In this document: in pieces, positions 5,743 through 19,538 of the stretch
Numbering within the stretch: position 1 is the first letter of the stretch
How the letters are laid out: each line of letters starts with the position of its first letter
DNA from: a virus
DNA: 23,466 bases
Direction: 5' to 3' (one strand)
IMG/VR virus record: IMGVR_UViG_3300009420_000094
Coordinates: 1-23,466 of that record
Translations under genes and position numbers: made by a program
Notes under the pieces: model-generated
The model's input: the letters and a program-made list of their open reading frames with translations, nothing else
What the model was told of the DNA's origin: nothing
The model's database searches: none

Positions 5743-6255
5743 ATGGCGTGTGATATAACGAGTGGGCGAGTAAAACAATGTTCAGACACTTTAGGAGGTG
5801 TTTCTAAACTATATTTATTCAATTACGTTGCAAATCCCTTTACAGTTTCGGCTGGGGAAGCAACAGCAATGAATGTATTAGTAACAGCGGCTTACGAATA
5901 TGACTTAGAAGGTGATGGGCATATTTTAGACGAGCAACAAGTACCGAACAGAGATGCAGGTACAAGAGTGAATACGCAAACGATTACAGCAATACTACAA
6001 AAGATAGATGCTGCAACGAGTGCGGAAATGAATTTAACAGCAGCGAACACACCGCAAGCAGTTGTAAAAGATAGAAACGGAAACTATTTTGCAGTAGGAA
6101 TTACTGACGGGGTTAAGTTTTCGATAGCGGTAAATACAGGAAGTGCGCATGAAGATAACAACGGGTACACTTTAACAGGTACTTCTAAAGAGGCTTTATT
6201 AGCACCTATATTAGATAGTTCAACAGTAACTGAATTTTTAGCAGTAGTAGCATAA
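5743..6255 (+). CDS. Tail-tube-like structural protein, copy 1
   Basis: 170 residues starting after the leader AAGATAAACA. The N-terminus reads C-D-I-T-S-G-R-x-K-Q-C-S-D, with two Cys residues 10 apart. The core is beta-rich with VVKDRNGNYFAVGITDG and ends EDNNGYTLTGTSKEALLAPIL. A clear paralogue lies at 8864-9427 (same N-terminal motif, DRNG, and E-D-x-N-G-Y near the end). Beta-barrel proteins of this size, encoded near connectors and read as single copies, are usually tail-tube or tail-completion proteins. The closing 'NGY..t..g.e' pattern fits the tube fold. It sits between two intrinsic terminators, so it may be transcribed as a single-gene unit by read-through. The tube assignment is inference. 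Confidence 0.5.
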   Translation: MACDITSGRVKQCSDTLGGVSKLYLFNYVANPFTVSAGEATAMNVLVTAAYEYDLEGDGHILDEQQVPNRDAGTRVNTQTITAILQKIDAATSAEMNLTAANTPQAVVKDRNGNYFAVGITDGVKFSIAVNTGSAHEDNNGYTLTGTSKEALLAPILDSSTVTEFLAVVA

Positions 6256-8312: not shown

Positions 8313-8864
8313 ATGGCAATTAAATTATTTATAACACCTCAAGAAATAGCAAACACCACCATTTTAGGCGGTAATATAGACCTAGACAAGTACACATTTG
8401 TAATAAATAGTGTAATGATTACGGTATTAGAGCCGCTTTTAGGTAGTTTGTTATACGATAAGATACTAACAGACTGGACTGCCGACACTTTAGCAGGTGA
8501 TTACTTAACAATATTTACTGAATTTATCAAACCTATCACTAAAAATGAATCCGCTGCGGAATACATAGAGATGTCAAGTTATACATTAGCAAATGGAGGA
8601 CTTTTTAAGCACTCTCCAGACAATGCAGAAGTAGTAGACAAGGACGAGGCGCAATTTTTAAGCGGAAAGTATCACAATATATCACAAATGTATATCCAAA
8701 GATTCAATAAATGGATATGTAAGAACGTTATATCAGAATATAAAATATCACAAGACGAGGTAAACGCATCAAAAAGTTTAACAGTACGCTCTGGGTGGTT
8801 CTTTGGAAGAACAAAAACCGATTATGATAATCAGTATTTTTGCGATAACGACCTTTCCTGTTAA
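8313..8864 (+). CDS. Head-tail connector, DUF6712-like
   Basis: 183 residues starting three bases after the portal stop. The N-terminus (IKLFITPQEIANTTILGGNIDLDKYTFVI) and LEPLLGSLLYDKI match the DUF6712 / gp6-like adaptor pattern in Bacteroidota phages, where a helical bundle caps the portal. The rest is helical, with SSYTLANGGLFKHSPDNAEVVDKDEAQFL and a Trp-containing helix FNKWICKNVI. The gene lies directly after the portal, as expected for an adaptor. Its stop codon overlaps the next ATG by one base (TAATG), giving coupled translation. Confidence 0.7.
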   Translation: MAIKLFITPQEIANTTILGGNIDLDKYTFVINSVMITVLEPLLGSLLYDKILTDWTADTLAGDYLTIFTEFIKPITKNESAAEYIEMSSYTLANGGLFKHSPDNAEVVDKDEAQFLSGKYHNISQMYIQRFNKWICKNVISEYKISQDEVNASKSLTVRSGWFFGRTKTDYDNQYFCDNDLSC

Positions 8865-9427
8865 TGATTTGCGGTATTACATCGGGCAGGTCTAAACAAT
8901 GTAGTGATAGTGTTGCAGGGTTCAATATTGTTTACTTGTTTCCTTTCGTTAGTTACGATAGGAGTCAAATTATTTTAAATACTAACATTGTAACTACATT
9001 CCCAGATACTGAAATTTTTAAATTTGAAGTATTGAACGCTAATTTGTCAGAAGAAATGAGCGAAGATGATGGAGGTATATTTTACAGTCAGAATTTGAGT
9101 TTTGATTTGGCGAGAACTAGCGTAGAAGATAATTTAGAATTGACTAAGTTGATGGATAAAGACTACATGGCTATCGTTTCAGATAGGAACGGTATCTTTA
9201 GATTATTAGGAACTTACAACGGATTGAGCGCAGAGGTTACAAAGGTCACAGGAGGCGGTATGGAGGACTTTAACGGGTATAAGGTAACGATGGAAGGAAA
9301 GGAATCTTTAAGCTCTTTATTCGTGTCTAATTTAGAAGATGCTGGATTTGTAGAGGATGGTTTTCTTTTGCTGGAAAACGGAGAGTTTATTTTAACAGAA
9401 AGTAACGAGAAAATAATATTGGAATGA
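8864..9427 (+). CDS. Tail-tube-like structural protein, copy 2
   Basis: 187 residues. It is paralogous to the 5743-6255 product over its length. It has the same N-terminal C-x-I-T-S-G-R-x-K-Q-C-S-D motif and the string YLF-x-x-V. Both share IVSDRNG / VVKDRNG and the closing EDFNGYKVTMEGKES / EDNNGYTLTGTSKEA. This copy has an extra acidic C-terminal extension (LLLENGEFILTESNEKIILE). It is coupled to the DUF6712-like connector. One paralogue may form the tube and the other a tail-terminator, completion or distal-tail protein. Assignment between these roles is not possible from sequence alone. Confidence 0.5.
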   Translation: MICGITSGRSKQCSDSVAGFNIVYLFPFVSYDRSQIILNTNIVTTFPDTEIFKFEVLNANLSEEMSEDDGGIFYSQNLSFDLARTSVEDNLELTKLMDKDYMAIVSDRNGIFRLLGTYNGLSAEVTKVTGGGMEDFNGYKVTMEGKESLSSLFVSNLEDAGFVEDGFLLLENGEFILTESNEKIILE

Positions 9428-15590: not shown

Positions 15591-16109
15591 ATGGAAAAAT
15601 ATAAAGATATAAAAGGTTACGAAGGCGTTTATCAAGTAAGCGACTCAGGAAACGTTAAGAGTTTAAAATTCGGTAAAGAAAAAATACTTAAAAGTTGTAT
15701 TGATACTGGAGGCTATTATTATGTAGGACTGTCTGAAAATAATACAAGAAAGTTTTTTAGAGTTCATAGATTAGTAGGGAGCGCGTTTATTATTAATGAT
15801 AATAATTATCCTGAAATAAATCACATAGACAAAAATAAAAGCAATAATACATGCTCTAATTTAGAATGGTGTACAAGGCAACAAAATGCAGATCACGGAT
15901 ACTCTAAAAAAGTTTTTCAATTCGATATGGATGGTAATTTTATAAAAGAATGGAAGTCTACTTCTGAGGTTGGAAGGAGCGGTTTTGTTCAACAACATAT
16001 TTCTGCTTGTTGTTTAGGTAAACTAAAACACCATAAAAAATATAAATGGAGTTTTGAAAAGGATATATTACTAACAGAATTAAACAAAGAAATAAAATCT
16101 TATGACTAA
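15591..16109 (+). CDS. HNH homing endonuclease (NUMOD4-HNH-NUMOD1)
   Basis: 172 residues with a recognisable domain order. NUMOD4 at 3-45 (KDIKGYEGVYQVSDSGNVKSL). HNH at 59-102 (VHRLVGSAFIIN, INHIDKNKSNN, NLEWCTRQQNADH). NUMOD1 at about 106-155, a DNA-recognition segment (VFQFDMDGNFIKEW...HISACCLGK). This is a selfish free-standing homing endonuclease that cuts DNA lacking it and is copied by recombination. It sits inside the recombination block. Residues 158-172 (DILLTELNKEIKSYD) go beyond the NUMOD1 and resemble the end of the upstream NinG-like protein, which hints at the insertion point. Its stop overlaps the next gene start by 8 bases. Confidence 0.85.
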   Translation: MEKYKDIKGYEGVYQVSDSGNVKSLKFGKEKILKSCIDTGGYYYVGLSENNTRKFFRVHRLVGSAFIINDNNYPEINHIDKNKSNNTCSNLEWCTRQQNADHGYSKKVFQFDMDGNFIKEWKSTSEVGRSGFVQQHISACCLGKLKHHKKYKWSFEKDILLTELNKEIKSYD

Positions 16110-16503: not shown

Positions 16504-16896
16504 ATGGATAAAATTTATCATCATTACACGCTATGGGAAGATTGGAAGGCTGGATTCTATAACAATATGTCTGGAGATGCAAAAAAAGAAAAAATACAGT
16601 CTGTTTTAAATATGTTTCAAAGCAAAGAGCTTACAAACGAATACATGAATAAGGTTATAGAAACATGGAAGTATTCGTGCGAGCAGAATTTCACAAACGA
16701 ATCTATAAATAAAGTAGCCTACTTAGGGCAAGCAGCTTGCTGTATTTACGGAAGTGTACCTTCTACGATAACAATGGAGGCTTGGAGTTTGTTAGACAAC
16801 AAAACTAAAGAACGCTCAAACAATATTGCCTTAAATATTATAAAAAAATGGAAACTAGCAAATAAAAATATACAATTATGCCTAAAAATTATTTAA
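16504..16896 (+). CDS. Conserved phage protein next to IbrA-like gene
   Basis: 130 residues with no known function. Sequence blocks look strongly conserved in character: YHHYTLWEDWKAGFYN at 5-20, MNKVIETWKYSCEQNFTN at 48-65, and YLGQAACCIYGSVPSTITMEAW at 73-94, with Cys59, Cys79 and Cys80. I have the impression this protein family recurs next to PAPS-reductase-like phage genes, but cannot verify this here. Its stop overlaps the IbrA-like start by 19 bases, so translation is probably linked and a shared pathway is likely. No membrane segment is visible. Confidence 0.6.
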   Translation: MDKIYHHYTLWEDWKAGFYNNMSGDAKKEKIQSVLNMFQSKELTNEYMNKVIETWKYSCEQNFTNESINKVAYLGQAACCIYGSVPSTITMEAWSLLDNKTKERSNNIALNIIKKWKLANKNIQLCLKII

Positions 16897-18098
16897 ATCA
16901 AAACGTTTTAGAAGCTACATACGAAAGAACAAATTATGTGTTTGATAATTTTAAAAGAATATATCTTTCTTTTAGCGCAGGAAAAGACTCAACTATAATG
17001 CTTCATACCACTATGAAAATAGCTAAGCAAAGAGGAGTTAAAATAGGGGTTATGATAGTTGATTTAGAAGGTCAGTATAAGTTAACTATTGACCATATTA
17101 TTAAAATAACAGAAGAGTATAAAGATTATATTGATTTATATTGGATATGCTTACCTATTCATTTAAGAAATGCTGTTTCTGTTTACGAACCTTTTTGGAA
17201 ATGTTGGGATAAAGACAAGAAAGAGGATTGGATTAGAGAACTCCCTAGTAATTGTATTAGTGATATTAATCATTTTCCTTTTTTTAAGGACGGTATGGAG
17301 TTTGAAGAGTTTGTTCCAGAGTTTGGAGAGTGGTACTCTCAAGGAGAGTTAACAGCTTGTTTGGTAGGAATTAGAACAGATGAAAGTTTAAATAGATACA
17401 GAACAATAGCTTCTGATTCTAAGGTTAAGTTTAACGATAAATGTTACACTACAAAAGTGACGGATAATGTTTTTAATGTTTACCCTATTTACGATTGGAG
17501 AACAGAAGACGTTTGGGTTTATCACGCTAGATATCCAGAGCATAGATACAACTACCTTTACGAAATGATGCATAAAGCAGGGTTAAGCATATCACAACAA
17601 AGGATATGTCAACCTTACGGAGATGACCAAAGAAGGGGTTTGTGGTTATTTCACTTAATAGAGCCAGAAACGTGGGCAAAAGTTGTTGCAAGAGTAAACG
17701 GGGCTAATTCTGGAGCGTTGTATGTAAACGAGAGCGGTTCAATAACTGGATATAATAAAATAACTAAACCAAAAAACCATACATGGAAAAGTTTTAGTGA
17801 ATTATTTTTAAGTAGTGTTCCTGATGTAACAAAACAACACTATCTAAATAAAATATTCACTTTTGAAAAATGGTGGGAAGAAAGAGGTTATCCACATGGA
17901 ATCCCAGACGAAGCCCCGTACGTTTTAGAGGGTAAAAAAATCGTACCTTCATGGAGAAGGATTGCTAAATCATTATTAAGGAATGATTTCTGGTGTAAAG
18001 GACTAGGGTTTACTCAGCACAAAACAGCTGCTTATAAAAAATATTTAGACTTAAAAAAGAAACAAAGAAATAACGATAAAATATATAAAAACGTATAA
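16878..18098 (+). CDS. ibrA: IbrA-like PP-loop protein (PAPS-reductase / DUF3440 family)
   Basis: 406 residues. The PP-loop SFSAGKDST (Ser33-Gly35-Lys36-Asp37-Ser38) binds the pyrophosphate of ATP in the adenine-nucleotide alpha-hydrolase superfamily. Further family features are GIRTDESLNRYR (164-175), VYPIYDWRTEDVWVY (201-215) and the DUF3440-type region RICQPYGDDQRRGLW (242-256). IbrA is known as a prophage regulator needed, with IbrB, for eib gene expression in E. coli. Related PP-loop proteins (CysH, DndC) activate or transfer sulfur. The gene pairs with an IbrB-like gene 2 bases downstream. No Fe-S-type C-x-x-C cluster is obvious. Sulfur chemistry on nucleic acid is a hypothesis; the family assignment is firm. 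Confidence 0.85.
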   Translation: MPKNYLNQNVLEATYERTNYVFDNFKRIYLSFSAGKDSTIMLHTTMKIAKQRGVKIGVMIVDLEGQYKLTIDHIIKITEEYKDYIDLYWICLPIHLRNAVSVYEPFWKCWDKDKKEDWIRELPSNCISDINHFPFFKDGMEFEEFVPEFGEWYSQGELTACLVGIRTDESLNRYRTIASDSKVKFNDKCYTTKVTDNVFNVYPIYDWRTEDVWVYHARYPEHRYNYLYEMMHKAGLSISQQRICQPYGDDQRRGLWLFHLIEPETWAKVVARVNGANSGALYVNESGSITGYNKITKPKNHTWKSFSELFLSSVPDVTKQHYLNKIFTFEKWWEERGYPHGIPDEAPYVLEGKKIVPSWRRIAKSLLRNDFWCKGLGFTQHKTAAYKKYLDLKKKQRNNDKIYKNV

Positions 18099-18100
18099 TT

Positions 18101-18721
18101 ATGAAAAAAATAATAGAAGGATTGTTAGAATTAAATTTACACGAAAGGGTGGAGGCTATAAATAAAATAAAAATACAACTCCATGAAATAAGTCCATTTA
18201 ACACAGAGCCTACAGATTGTGTTTTATGGGTAAAAAATGATATTGTTAAAGCTAATGACTACAATCCTAATTCAGTTGCGCCTCCAGAAATGGAGTTATT
18301 AAGACTCTCTATTTCAAACGATGGATACACTCAGCCAATTGTGAGTATGAAAAACGAGGATGGAACAATTGAGGTTATAGATGGTTTTCATAGGCACAGA
18401 GTCGGTAAGGAGTGTGAAGAAATACAATCTAGAGTACATGGTTACCTTCCTGTTGTTCAAATAAAAGAATCTCAAAAAGGATTAAACGACAGGGTAGCTT
18501 CCACGATTAGACACAATAGAGCAAGGGGTAAGCATAGGGTGGACTCTATGAGTGAAATTGTAGCAGACCTTAAAAAAAGAAATTGGTCTCCTAAAAAGAT
18601 AGGTAAAGAATTAGGAATGGACCAAGACGAAGTGTTGAGATTAGCGCAAATAACAGGATTAACTGAACTTTTTGCAGATAAAGAGTTTTCTAAATCATGG
18701 GATGTAAATGAAAAAGAGTAA
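18101..18721 (+). CDS. ibrB: IbrB-like ParB-domain protein
   Basis: 206 residues. A ParB/sulfiredoxin-like domain spans about 40-145: QPIVSMKNEDGTIEVIDGFHRHR (GFHRHR at 95-100, the family's G-x-H-R type motif) and STIRHNRARG at 134-143 (like the E-N-x-x-R motif). A helix-turn-helix follows (NWSPKKIGKELGMDQDEVLRL, 161-181). ParB-type domains of this kind can bind CTP or ATP. There is no sulfiredoxin catalytic Cys in the GFHRHR motif. IbrB is the known partner of IbrA and the gene order ibrA-ibrB is preserved, separated by two bases. Its stop overlaps the next start. The DNA-binding helix suggests regulatory or targeting action. Confidence 0.85.
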   Translation: MKKIIEGLLELNLHERVEAINKIKIQLHEISPFNTEPTDCVLWVKNDIVKANDYNPNSVAPPEMELLRLSISNDGYTQPIVSMKNEDGTIEVIDGFHRHRVGKECEEIQSRVHGYLPVVQIKESQKGLNDRVASTIRHNRARGKHRVDSMSEIVADLKKRNWSPKKIGKELGMDQDEVLRLAQITGLTELFADKEFSKSWDVNEKE

Positions 18722-19370
18722 AGATAATAAAGTGGAATTTCACGAAGATACGCATTCTTATATTTTAGAAGGTAAAAAATTAACTAGTGTAACTCAATAC
18801 ATATCTGAATTTAAAGCGCCTTTTGATACAGAAAGGATTGCTGGTGATTATGCAAGAAAGCGTGCTCTTACAAAAGAGTATGTTATTAAAATGTGGAAAG
18901 ACAAAGCAGAAAAATCTTGTAAAATAGGAACGTATATTCACTCTGTATTTGAGGATTATATTTTAAATGTATATCACAAAAGTAAAGATTATCCTAAAAA
19001 AGAATCAGCATACTCTGTAATAGATGATTTGTTTAAGTCTGGAAGGCTTACTCCTGTAGAGGCAGAATATATTGTTTACAATGAAAAATACGCTGGTCAA
19101 ATAGACTGTATCGCTAAAAACAAGAAAGGAGAGCATTTTATTTTAGATTGGAAAACAAATAATAAAATAGACTTTTTTAATAATTGGCAAAAAATGCTAG
19201 GTAAGTACTCGTGTTTTGATGATTGTAGTTTTAATAACTATTCAATACAATTAAACGCATACAGGGAATTATGTAAAGACTACGATATTAAAGCGTGCTA
19301 TATTGTACATATTACAGATAATGGATATAAGTTTATAAAGGTAAAGGATTTAAATATAAATTTAAATTAA
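18708..19370 (+). CDS. RecB-like PD-(D/E)XK exonuclease
   Basis: 220 residues. Nuclease motifs in order: GTYIHSVFEDYI with His78 and Glu82, VEAEYIVYNEKYAGQIDCI with Asp133, FILDWKTNN with Asp147 and Lys149, and YSIQLNAYREL with Gln181 and Tyr185. These are the classic G-x-x-x-H, G-x-I-D, D-x-K and Q-x-x-x-Y signatures of RecB/Cas4-type nucleases. In a phage with a Rad52-like annealing protein it would make the 3' single strands for recombination or replication. It overlaps the IbrB-like stop by 14 bases. An alternative is a nuclease acting with the IbrA/IbrB cassette. Confidence 0.8.
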   Translation: MKKSKDNKVEFHEDTHSYILEGKKLTSVTQYISEFKAPFDTERIAGDYARKRALTKEYVIKMWKDKAEKSCKIGTYIHSVFEDYILNVYHKSKDYPKKESAYSVIDDLFKSGRLTPVEAEYIVYNEKYAGQIDCIAKNKKGEHFILDWKTNNKIDFFNNWQKMLGKYSCFDDCSFNNYSIQLNAYRELCKDYDIKACYIVHITDNGYKFIKVKDLNINLN

Positions 19371-19444
19371 CAACAGCTATATTGTTAAAATTTAACTGTT
19401 AATAAAGTTTTTTTGATAAATTAACTAGAGTTAAATATTAATAT

Positions 19445-19452
19445 TACTTTTG
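19445..19452 (+). promoter_or_regulatory. Bacteroidota -7 box before the structured intergenic element
   Basis: TACTTTTG is a perfect TAnnTTTG. A clear -33 TTTG at the usual spacing is missing; TTTG at 19412-19415 is 29 bases upstream, too far. Transcription would start at about 19457-19460, just where the structured segment begins. Confidence 0.45.
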
Positions 19453-19456
19453 GTAA

Positions 19457-19516
19457 GTGTTCAGACTTAGCGGTTTGATTCAATGAGGCGCAACCACCTG
19501 CACATTTCTTTTTTTT
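19457..19516 (+). ncRNA. Candidate structured leader or small RNA
   Basis: In the 156-base gap 19371-19526, one segment is about 51% GC over 19457-19503 in an otherwise AT-rich gap. GTG (19457-19459) and CAG (19462-19464) pair with CAC (19501-19503) and CTG (19498-19500) across a two-base bulge. GGTT (19472-19475) pairs with AACC (19492-19495) inside. A T-run with one C (19505-19516) follows, as in an intrinsic terminator or small-RNA tail. GGTTG at 19517-19521 and again at 19529-19533 could compete for CAACC. It may be a riboswitch-like leader, an attenuator or a small RNA. I know no matching RNA family. Confidence 0.35.
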
Positions 19517-19538
19517 GGTTGTATAAATGGTTGAAATT

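Follow-up and report, generated by a model that had tools for sequence, protein, structure and literature searches.

A small helical viral protein that seems to tie IbrA-like and IbrB-like proteins together

What does a tailed phage do with a PP-loop protein resembling IbrA and a ParB-like protein resembling IbrB, and does the small gene that precedes the two belong to the same device? The window analysed here, i.e. the whole stretch of DNA, is a complete IMG/VR record of 23,466 bases that represents a fragment of a tailed phage. The three proteins, denoted here X (a label coined in this analysis for the 130-aa protein), A and B, are all 100% identical in a longer record of 34,978 bases (loci L008 and L026). 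The relevant features of the window are as follows.

16504..16896, + strand: X, 130 aa, predicted to be all-alpha; its family is restricted to viruses and has no named domain; obligate neighbour of IbrA/IbrB
16878..16896, + strand: X/A overlap, 19 bases comprising the end of X and the start of A; identical length in 53 loci
16878..18098, + strand: A, 406 aa, IbrA-like PP-loop ATP-pyrophosphatase/DUF3440 protein
16968..16994, + strand: PP-loop SFSAGKDST of A, residues 31-39
17367..17396, + strand: GIRTDESLNR motif of A, common to PAPS-reductase-like enzymes
17832..18077, + strand: C-terminal domain of A, residues 319-400; a copy is a separate gene in X-bearing phages with a divergent IbrA
18101..18721, + strand: B, 206 aa, IbrB-like; predicted ParB/Noc/KorB-like NTP-binding fold and helix-turn-helix
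18380..18394, + strand: DGFHR motif of B; D94, G95, H97 and R98 invariant
18708..19370, + strand: phage exonuclease (PHROG 298, 6.6e-31), its first 14 bases shared with the end of B

The gene coordinates, the 19-base X/A overlap and the 2-base gap between A and B (18099-18100), all reported in an earlier note made from the sequence alone, are exact, and the overlap suggests translational coupling of X and A.

Protein X and its linkage to IbrA and IbrB

Among the best 80 matches listed, a search with X only, which was blind to A, yielded 66 new viral loci; A adjoins X in all 66 and B is present in 65, with the remaining locus ending at the contig edge, and these counts include many near copies on contigs that are fragments, so that the percentages do not represent independent observations. 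In two further X-anchored scans with remote members, the loci that are not cut by the end of a contig again contain both A and B. Among 50,697 records of isolate phages, X was found in 6, each time beside IbrA/B, namely, Microcystis phage Mwe-JY13, Pseudomonas phage Amjad_SA, Pseudoalteromonas phage XCL1123, and Mycobacterium phages Gaia (two records) and Nebkiss. A pattern scan of bacterial genomes for X recovered two contigs, both with the order B-X-A, and 395 genomes of one phylum yielded one X, which lies within one of these two contigs. None of 72,556 plasmids encodes X and 600 of them encode IbrA. Thus, X is almost wholly confined to viruses. The gene order across the loci is X-A-B or B-X-A.

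The association of X, A and B is far beyond chance, and, judged by this linkage, X is a real third component of the IbrA/IbrB unit. The proposal of the earlier note that the three genes form one functional unit is upheld by the 66 of 66 loci with A, the 65 with B and the retention of the overlap in 53 loci. Occurrence of X without IbrA-like genes, the observation named there as counting against this proposal, did not turn up: the 66 X-anchored loci, the six phage records and the two bacterial contigs all possess IbrA. Many phages and plasmids have IbrAB but no X, so X would be dispensable for the core activity.

So what kind of protein is X? Comparison with Pfam, PHROGs, NCBIfam and PADLOC produced no match above noise. 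When all 77 members of the family were scanned against Pfam and PHROG, just scattered weak matches appeared, each confined to one or a few members, so that assignment of X to any named family of these collections was dropped. The predicted structure is all-helical (pLDDT 95, pTM 0.88); no fold relative was detected in the PDB (best E 2.0), and the only match among the viral structures of BFVD is a 116-aa protein without a name that, from its length, is probably the XCL1123 homologue. The invariant residues are E12, N69, A72, G75 and A109. All three genes are under purifying selection, with median dN/dS of 0.17 for X, 0.05 for A and 0.07 for B, medians that include near copies and hence are not independent; by this measure, X evolves about 2-3 times faster than B or A. 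Taken together, X seems to be a small, all-helical, previously undescribed protein that apparently ties IbrA and IbrB together.

IbrAB lineages, B-X fusions and the C-terminal domain of IbrA

These loci share the IbrA-IbrB pair as their core, and the partners differ by lineage, where the lineage sets were collected by similarity to a few queries, so that the proportions describe the lineages rather than nature at large. In the window-type lineage, the partner is X. The Gaia-type lineage combines X (76 of 80 loci) with an ectoine-synthase-like cupin (78 of 80) that is mostly fused to the N-terminus of B. In the Fusobacterium/Firmicutes type, all 37 loci examined contain a gene for an SNF2-like helicase and not one contains X; nor was X found anywhere in 13 records of this type that were searched in full, and X and the SNF2-like helicase never occur together in the loci surveyed. 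In the E. coli type, the pair mostly stands alone (X in 2 of 25 loci).

Several individual loci illustrate this variety. The cupin is fused N-terminally to IbrB in Gaia gp104 (L004:3742-4641) and is either fused or separate beside IbrB elsewhere (L003:3069-3461 and L179-L258). The SNF2-like helicase adjoins IbrA/IbrB in L074-L077 and L259-L295, which include loci of the Firmicutes/Fusobacterium type and also of the Flavobacterium FCV type. A haloarchaeal plasmid (L309:4974-8170) encodes, consecutively, a DUF3440 protein, a ParB protein, a GNAT acetyltransferase and a second, shorter PAPS-reductase-like protein, and represents a further variant of IbrAB. Gene 6 of a Chlorobiaceae phage, located upstream of IbrA, was considered as a divergent X and rejected, as it had no profile match.

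Two observations bear on the position of X within the assembly. First, in ten loci, B and X form one open reading frame, in which B is N-terminal and X C-terminal. Second, X also accompanies IbrA proteins that are just about 36-42% identical to A of the window, and the phages with these divergent IbrA possess an extra small gene that starts inside the 3' end of X and encodes a free-standing copy of approximately the last 75 residues of the window-type IbrA. This free domain, exemplified by gp107 of Mycobacterium phage Gaia, is 34-46% identical to residues 319-400 of A and, by alignment score, is closer to the C-terminus of the window A than to that of the IbrA of its own phage. It was detected in 89 of 92 loci that combine a divergent IbrA with X, in none of 54 divergent-IbrA loci lacking X, and in none of 157 loci of the window type, whose IbrA already contains the domain. 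Two of the three exceptions end at a contig edge, and in the third (L239) the domain is fused to a sliding clamp. The possibility that this small ORF between X and the divergent IbrA is a dead scar of gene replacement was rejected: the frame is open, overlaps X, is retained in the 89 of 92 loci and is under purifying selection (dN/dS 0.10).

The fusion in L239 (4071-5333), known from this one metagenomic contig, places the X-linked C-terminal domain of IbrA in frame with a phage DNA polymerase processivity factor (PHROG 947, 1.1e-34). Annotations of queuine tRNA-ribosyltransferase overlap some of the clamp relatives in isolate phages.

X is 45-57% identical to the window protein even where A of the same phage reaches just 36-40% (around 38%), and this higher identity of X combined with the low identity of A implies that the unit made up of X and the C-terminal domain moves between IbrAB lineages. 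In the IbrA tree (82 dereplicated rows), the label "X only" requires at least 4 changes, and all partner labels together require 7 changes vs 40 with shuffled labels; together with the greater similarity of X than of A, these changes indicate repeated gain or loss of the unit. The simplest reading appears to be that X acts with the C-terminal domain and brings a matching copy of it along into distant IbrAB lineages. Given the B-X fusions and the co-occurrence of X with the free domain, the most likely role of X is to connect IbrB with the IbrA C-terminal domain, through a physical contact that we infer, and we consider this arrangement quite probable.

The predicted enzyme and its ParB-like partner

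The characterization of A in the earlier note, as a protein with an intact SFSAGKDST PP-loop and DUF3440 features, is confirmed, with both Pfam domains well above their cut-offs (DUF3440, 2.4e-33 and 115.9 bits vs 25; PAPS_reduct, 1.2e-13 and 51.9 bits vs 22.5). ATP-pyrophosphatase (adenylation) chemistry is established for the PP-loop superfamily. Residues S33, G35, K36, D37 and S38 of the PP-loop as well as the GxRxxESxxR motif are kept in at least 97% of 118 IbrA sequences. The loop is intact across the family, contrary to the inactivation in relatives that the earlier note named as counting against its reading, and this conservation argues for retained ATP-pyrophosphatase activity in A. 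The closest solved sequences in profile comparison, chiefly over the PP-loop region, are the ATP sulfurylase CysD and a PAPS reductase.

The assignment of B is less direct. Its match to ParB_N (21.6 bits) falls under the Pfam cut-off of 26.3, and that to the canonical ParB model TIGR00180 (20.3 bits) lies far under the cut-off of 58.45; however, B matches the "ParB-like" PHROG 2159 at 2.3e-68 and contains DGFHRHR, in which the signature DGxHR is invariant across the IbrB relatives. A fused B-X relative was modelled with a mean pLDDT of 85 and a pTM of 0.52, the orientation of the domains not being confident, and the PDB matches of this model are Noc, KorB and ParB, followed by sulfiredoxin. 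Thus, the description of B in the earlier note as a ParB-type protein with GFHRHR and a helix-turn-helix stands. Sulfiredoxin has a catalytic Cys in its GCHR motif; B has GFHR or GYHR, and no Cys is conserved in 112 IbrB sequences. No match for B was obtained with the DndB models of NCBIfam and PADLOC. PHROG 2159, with 365 positions, was also considered as a B-X fusion family and discarded given that the X part of the fused protein is left uncovered. Binding of an NTP and of DNA by B is plausible from the modelled fold and the invariant signature. Among phage proteins with the ParB fold, CTP and ATP are both possible ligands, a DndB-like example binds ATP and GTP, and nucleotide specificity is not reliably predictable (PMC12704722). 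With respect to the CTPase-HTH proteins ParB, Noc and KorB, B is alike in its fold, as predicted for the fused relative, but its DGFHR replaces the canonical ParB motif and its partner is a PP-loop enzyme; no ParA partner was noticed among the scanned ORFs of the window.

Possible functions of the cassette

The surroundings of the cassette provide the next set of clues. About 60 dereplicated loci supplied 125 proteins that flank the cassette, and the named families that recur most often among them are DNA primase/helicase, DnaB-like helicase, primosomal protein, DnaD-like loader, O-like initiator and exonuclease. The flanks in the window include a Rad52/Erf-like annealing protein, a NinG-like HNH protein and the exonuclease, the last of which (PHROG 298) is found beside the cassette in some relatives only. 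The earlier note placed the cassette in a recombination block, which is correct, and the module can be described more broadly as one of replication and recombination.

The reading that we favour, with a probability of roughly 0.42, is that the cassette encodes a three-part, ATP-driven, DNA-directed complex for phage replication that most likely modifies phage DNA covalently. Under this scenario, IbrB would be the NTP-binding subunit that engages DNA, X would act as a helical bridge between IbrB and the IbrA C-terminal domain, and the PP-loop enzyme IbrA would convert ATP to AMP and pyrophosphate, thereby activating (adenylating) a target group that most likely belongs to DNA, at the replication fork or close to it. 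The outcome would be a covalent modification of a base or of the backbone of phage DNA that shields the genome from host defences; this last step is itself somewhat less than an even bet. That X is obligately linked to IbrA/IbrB, is fused to B in some loci and travels with the C-terminal domain can be read from the sequences themselves; physical binding, ATP chemistry and DNA as the target are what we infer. DNA is suggested as the target by the replication-gene neighbours, the KorB/Noc/ParB-like nature of B, the SNF2-like helicase that takes the place of X in other lineages, a matter of gene neighbourhood, and the clamp fusion on the single contig L239.

A bolder extension, possible and more tentative, is that IbrAB forms the core of undescribed, modular, virus-borne DNA-modifying machines with exchangeable targeting parts. 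These parts would be the unit of X and the IbrA C-terminal domain, the SNF2-like translocase, or the cupin fused to IbrB, and X would be a new fold that couples the machine to replication.

Could the cassette instead regulate transcription? The E. coli IbrAB pair is, by genetics, a transcriptional co-activator and is annotated as a co-activator of prophage gene expression; to our knowledge, E. coli IbrAB genetics does not extend beyond this activity. In that case, IbrB would bind phage or host promoters in the manner of a ParB/KorB-like repressor or activator, IbrA would sense or modify a small molecule or a protein, X would be a co-regulator, and the cassette would reprogram phage or host gene expression, an option with which the repressor KorB and Noc as the nearest solved folds of B (in its fused relative) are compatible. 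The PhiR5_2 copies of E. coli IbrA and IbrB are 43% and 55% identical to A and B, respectively, with the same A-then-B order and domains, but 23 of 25 loci of the E. coli type lack X, and the window cassette, in contrast, sits in a replication module. This location, together with the absence of an obvious need for a strictly kept PP-loop enzyme or for alternation with an SNF2-like helicase, makes the regulatory scenario unlikely.

A different role for X would be that of a negative regulator or immunity-like partner that binds the C-terminal domain of IbrA and holds the enzyme off until needed. Translation of X just ahead of A with an overlap, its dN/dS about 2-3 times above that of B or A, and the free IbrA C-terminal domain that accompanies it in divergent systems could all be accommodated in this manner. 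The Listeria IbrAB pair has also been listed, by guilt-by-association, as a putative toxin-antitoxin pair (PMC7020466); this pair, lmo1310/lmo1309, and YbdN/YbdM of E. coli likewise combine a DUF3440 protein with a ParB-like protein but are chromosomal, with no X described. Nevertheless, IbrA and IbrB often occur in plasmids and phages that lack X, so there is no general requirement for an inhibitor, and in ten loci X is a stable part of IbrB by fusion, so that we regard inhibition as improbable.

Counter-defence could also be achieved by modification of a host protein, a tRNA or a nucleotide signal rather than of phage DNA. The PP-loop enzymes include tRNA-modifying ones, A has weak matches to TilS and TtcA, and the near-confinement of X to viruses would fit; still, the site in the replication module, the DNA-clamp-like IbrB and the helicase alternative all indicate DNA, rendering such a target quite improbable.

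The remaining alternative is sulfur chemistry, toward which the earlier note leaned by way of DndC. The Dnd/Ssp systems (DndC/SspD with DndB/SspE) and BREX type 4 (BrxP) likewise join a PP-loop, PAPS-reductase-like enzyme to a ParB-superfamily protein, and the DNA motor of these systems is paralleled in some IbrAB lineages (for BREX type 4, PMC12839542), but IbrAB has no conserved Fe-S or dyad cysteines, no DndA found in 17 records and no match above cut-off. Specifically, A scores 23.7 bits with the curated DndC model (cut-off 290.4), 24.9 bits over only about 60 residues with the DndC of PADLOC, and 19-23 bits with CysH/PAPS reductase models (cut-offs 154-254). DndC is defined by a three-cysteine Fe-S site and a cysteine dyad (PMC10853773). 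Neither these cysteines nor the conserved catalytic cysteine of CysH have an invariant counterpart among the 118 IbrA, in which the best column is Cys in 88% of the sequences and none reaches 97%, and A, B and X all lack an invariant cysteine. A cysteine desulfurase (Aminotran_5) was found in 0 of 17 records vs 14 of 14 control genomes, although these records may be incomplete and an enzyme of the host could take this role. With these cysteines lacking and the DndC and CysH scores so far below the cut-offs, sulfur transfer by A is unlikely, a cofactor or host partner being conceivable. Hence, IbrA is very unlikely to be a genuine PAPS reductase or a sulfurtransferase like DndC, whether as an auxiliary metabolic gene or in DNA phosphorothioation, notwithstanding the PAPS_reduct domain, the weak DndC matches and the common annotation of phage relatives as PAPS reductase, and the sulfur enzyme was abandoned as the leading reading.

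Although IbrA is common (209 of the 50,697 isolate phage records, 600 plasmids and also E. coli K-12), IbrA/IbrB genes are annotated merely as "PAPS reductase", "ParB" or "co-activator", and in the open-access literature that names both proteins we found annotation or phylogeny mentions, with neither a mechanism nor a third gene. With X as a linked third subunit that can be fused to IbrB and that accompanies the C-terminal domain, a concrete, testable assembly model is available, and the replication and helicase context directs biochemistry at DNA and away from sulfur metabolism. If phage DNA is the target, the cassette would represent a new modification system; if it is not, the sulfate-metabolism annotation of hundreds of genes still needs correcting.

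A few other features of the window deserve a mention. Just upstream of the cassette (15591-16109) lies a gene resembling NUMOD4/HNH homing endonucleases (Pfam NUMOD4, 2.6e-15; HNH_3, 5.2e-07). The 156-base gap that follows the exonuclease (19371-19526) contains T-rich stretches, with no Rfam match and with related sequence only in the identical phage. The protein encoded at 20838-21482 matches PHROG 757 (DNA methyltransferase) at 4.7e-50 and has no Pfam match; the same PHROG is matched by 5 of the 125 cassette-neighbour proteins in relatives. Finally, the structural region contains a paralogous pair of genes, at 5743-6255 and 8864-9427 (29% identity, E 4e-18).
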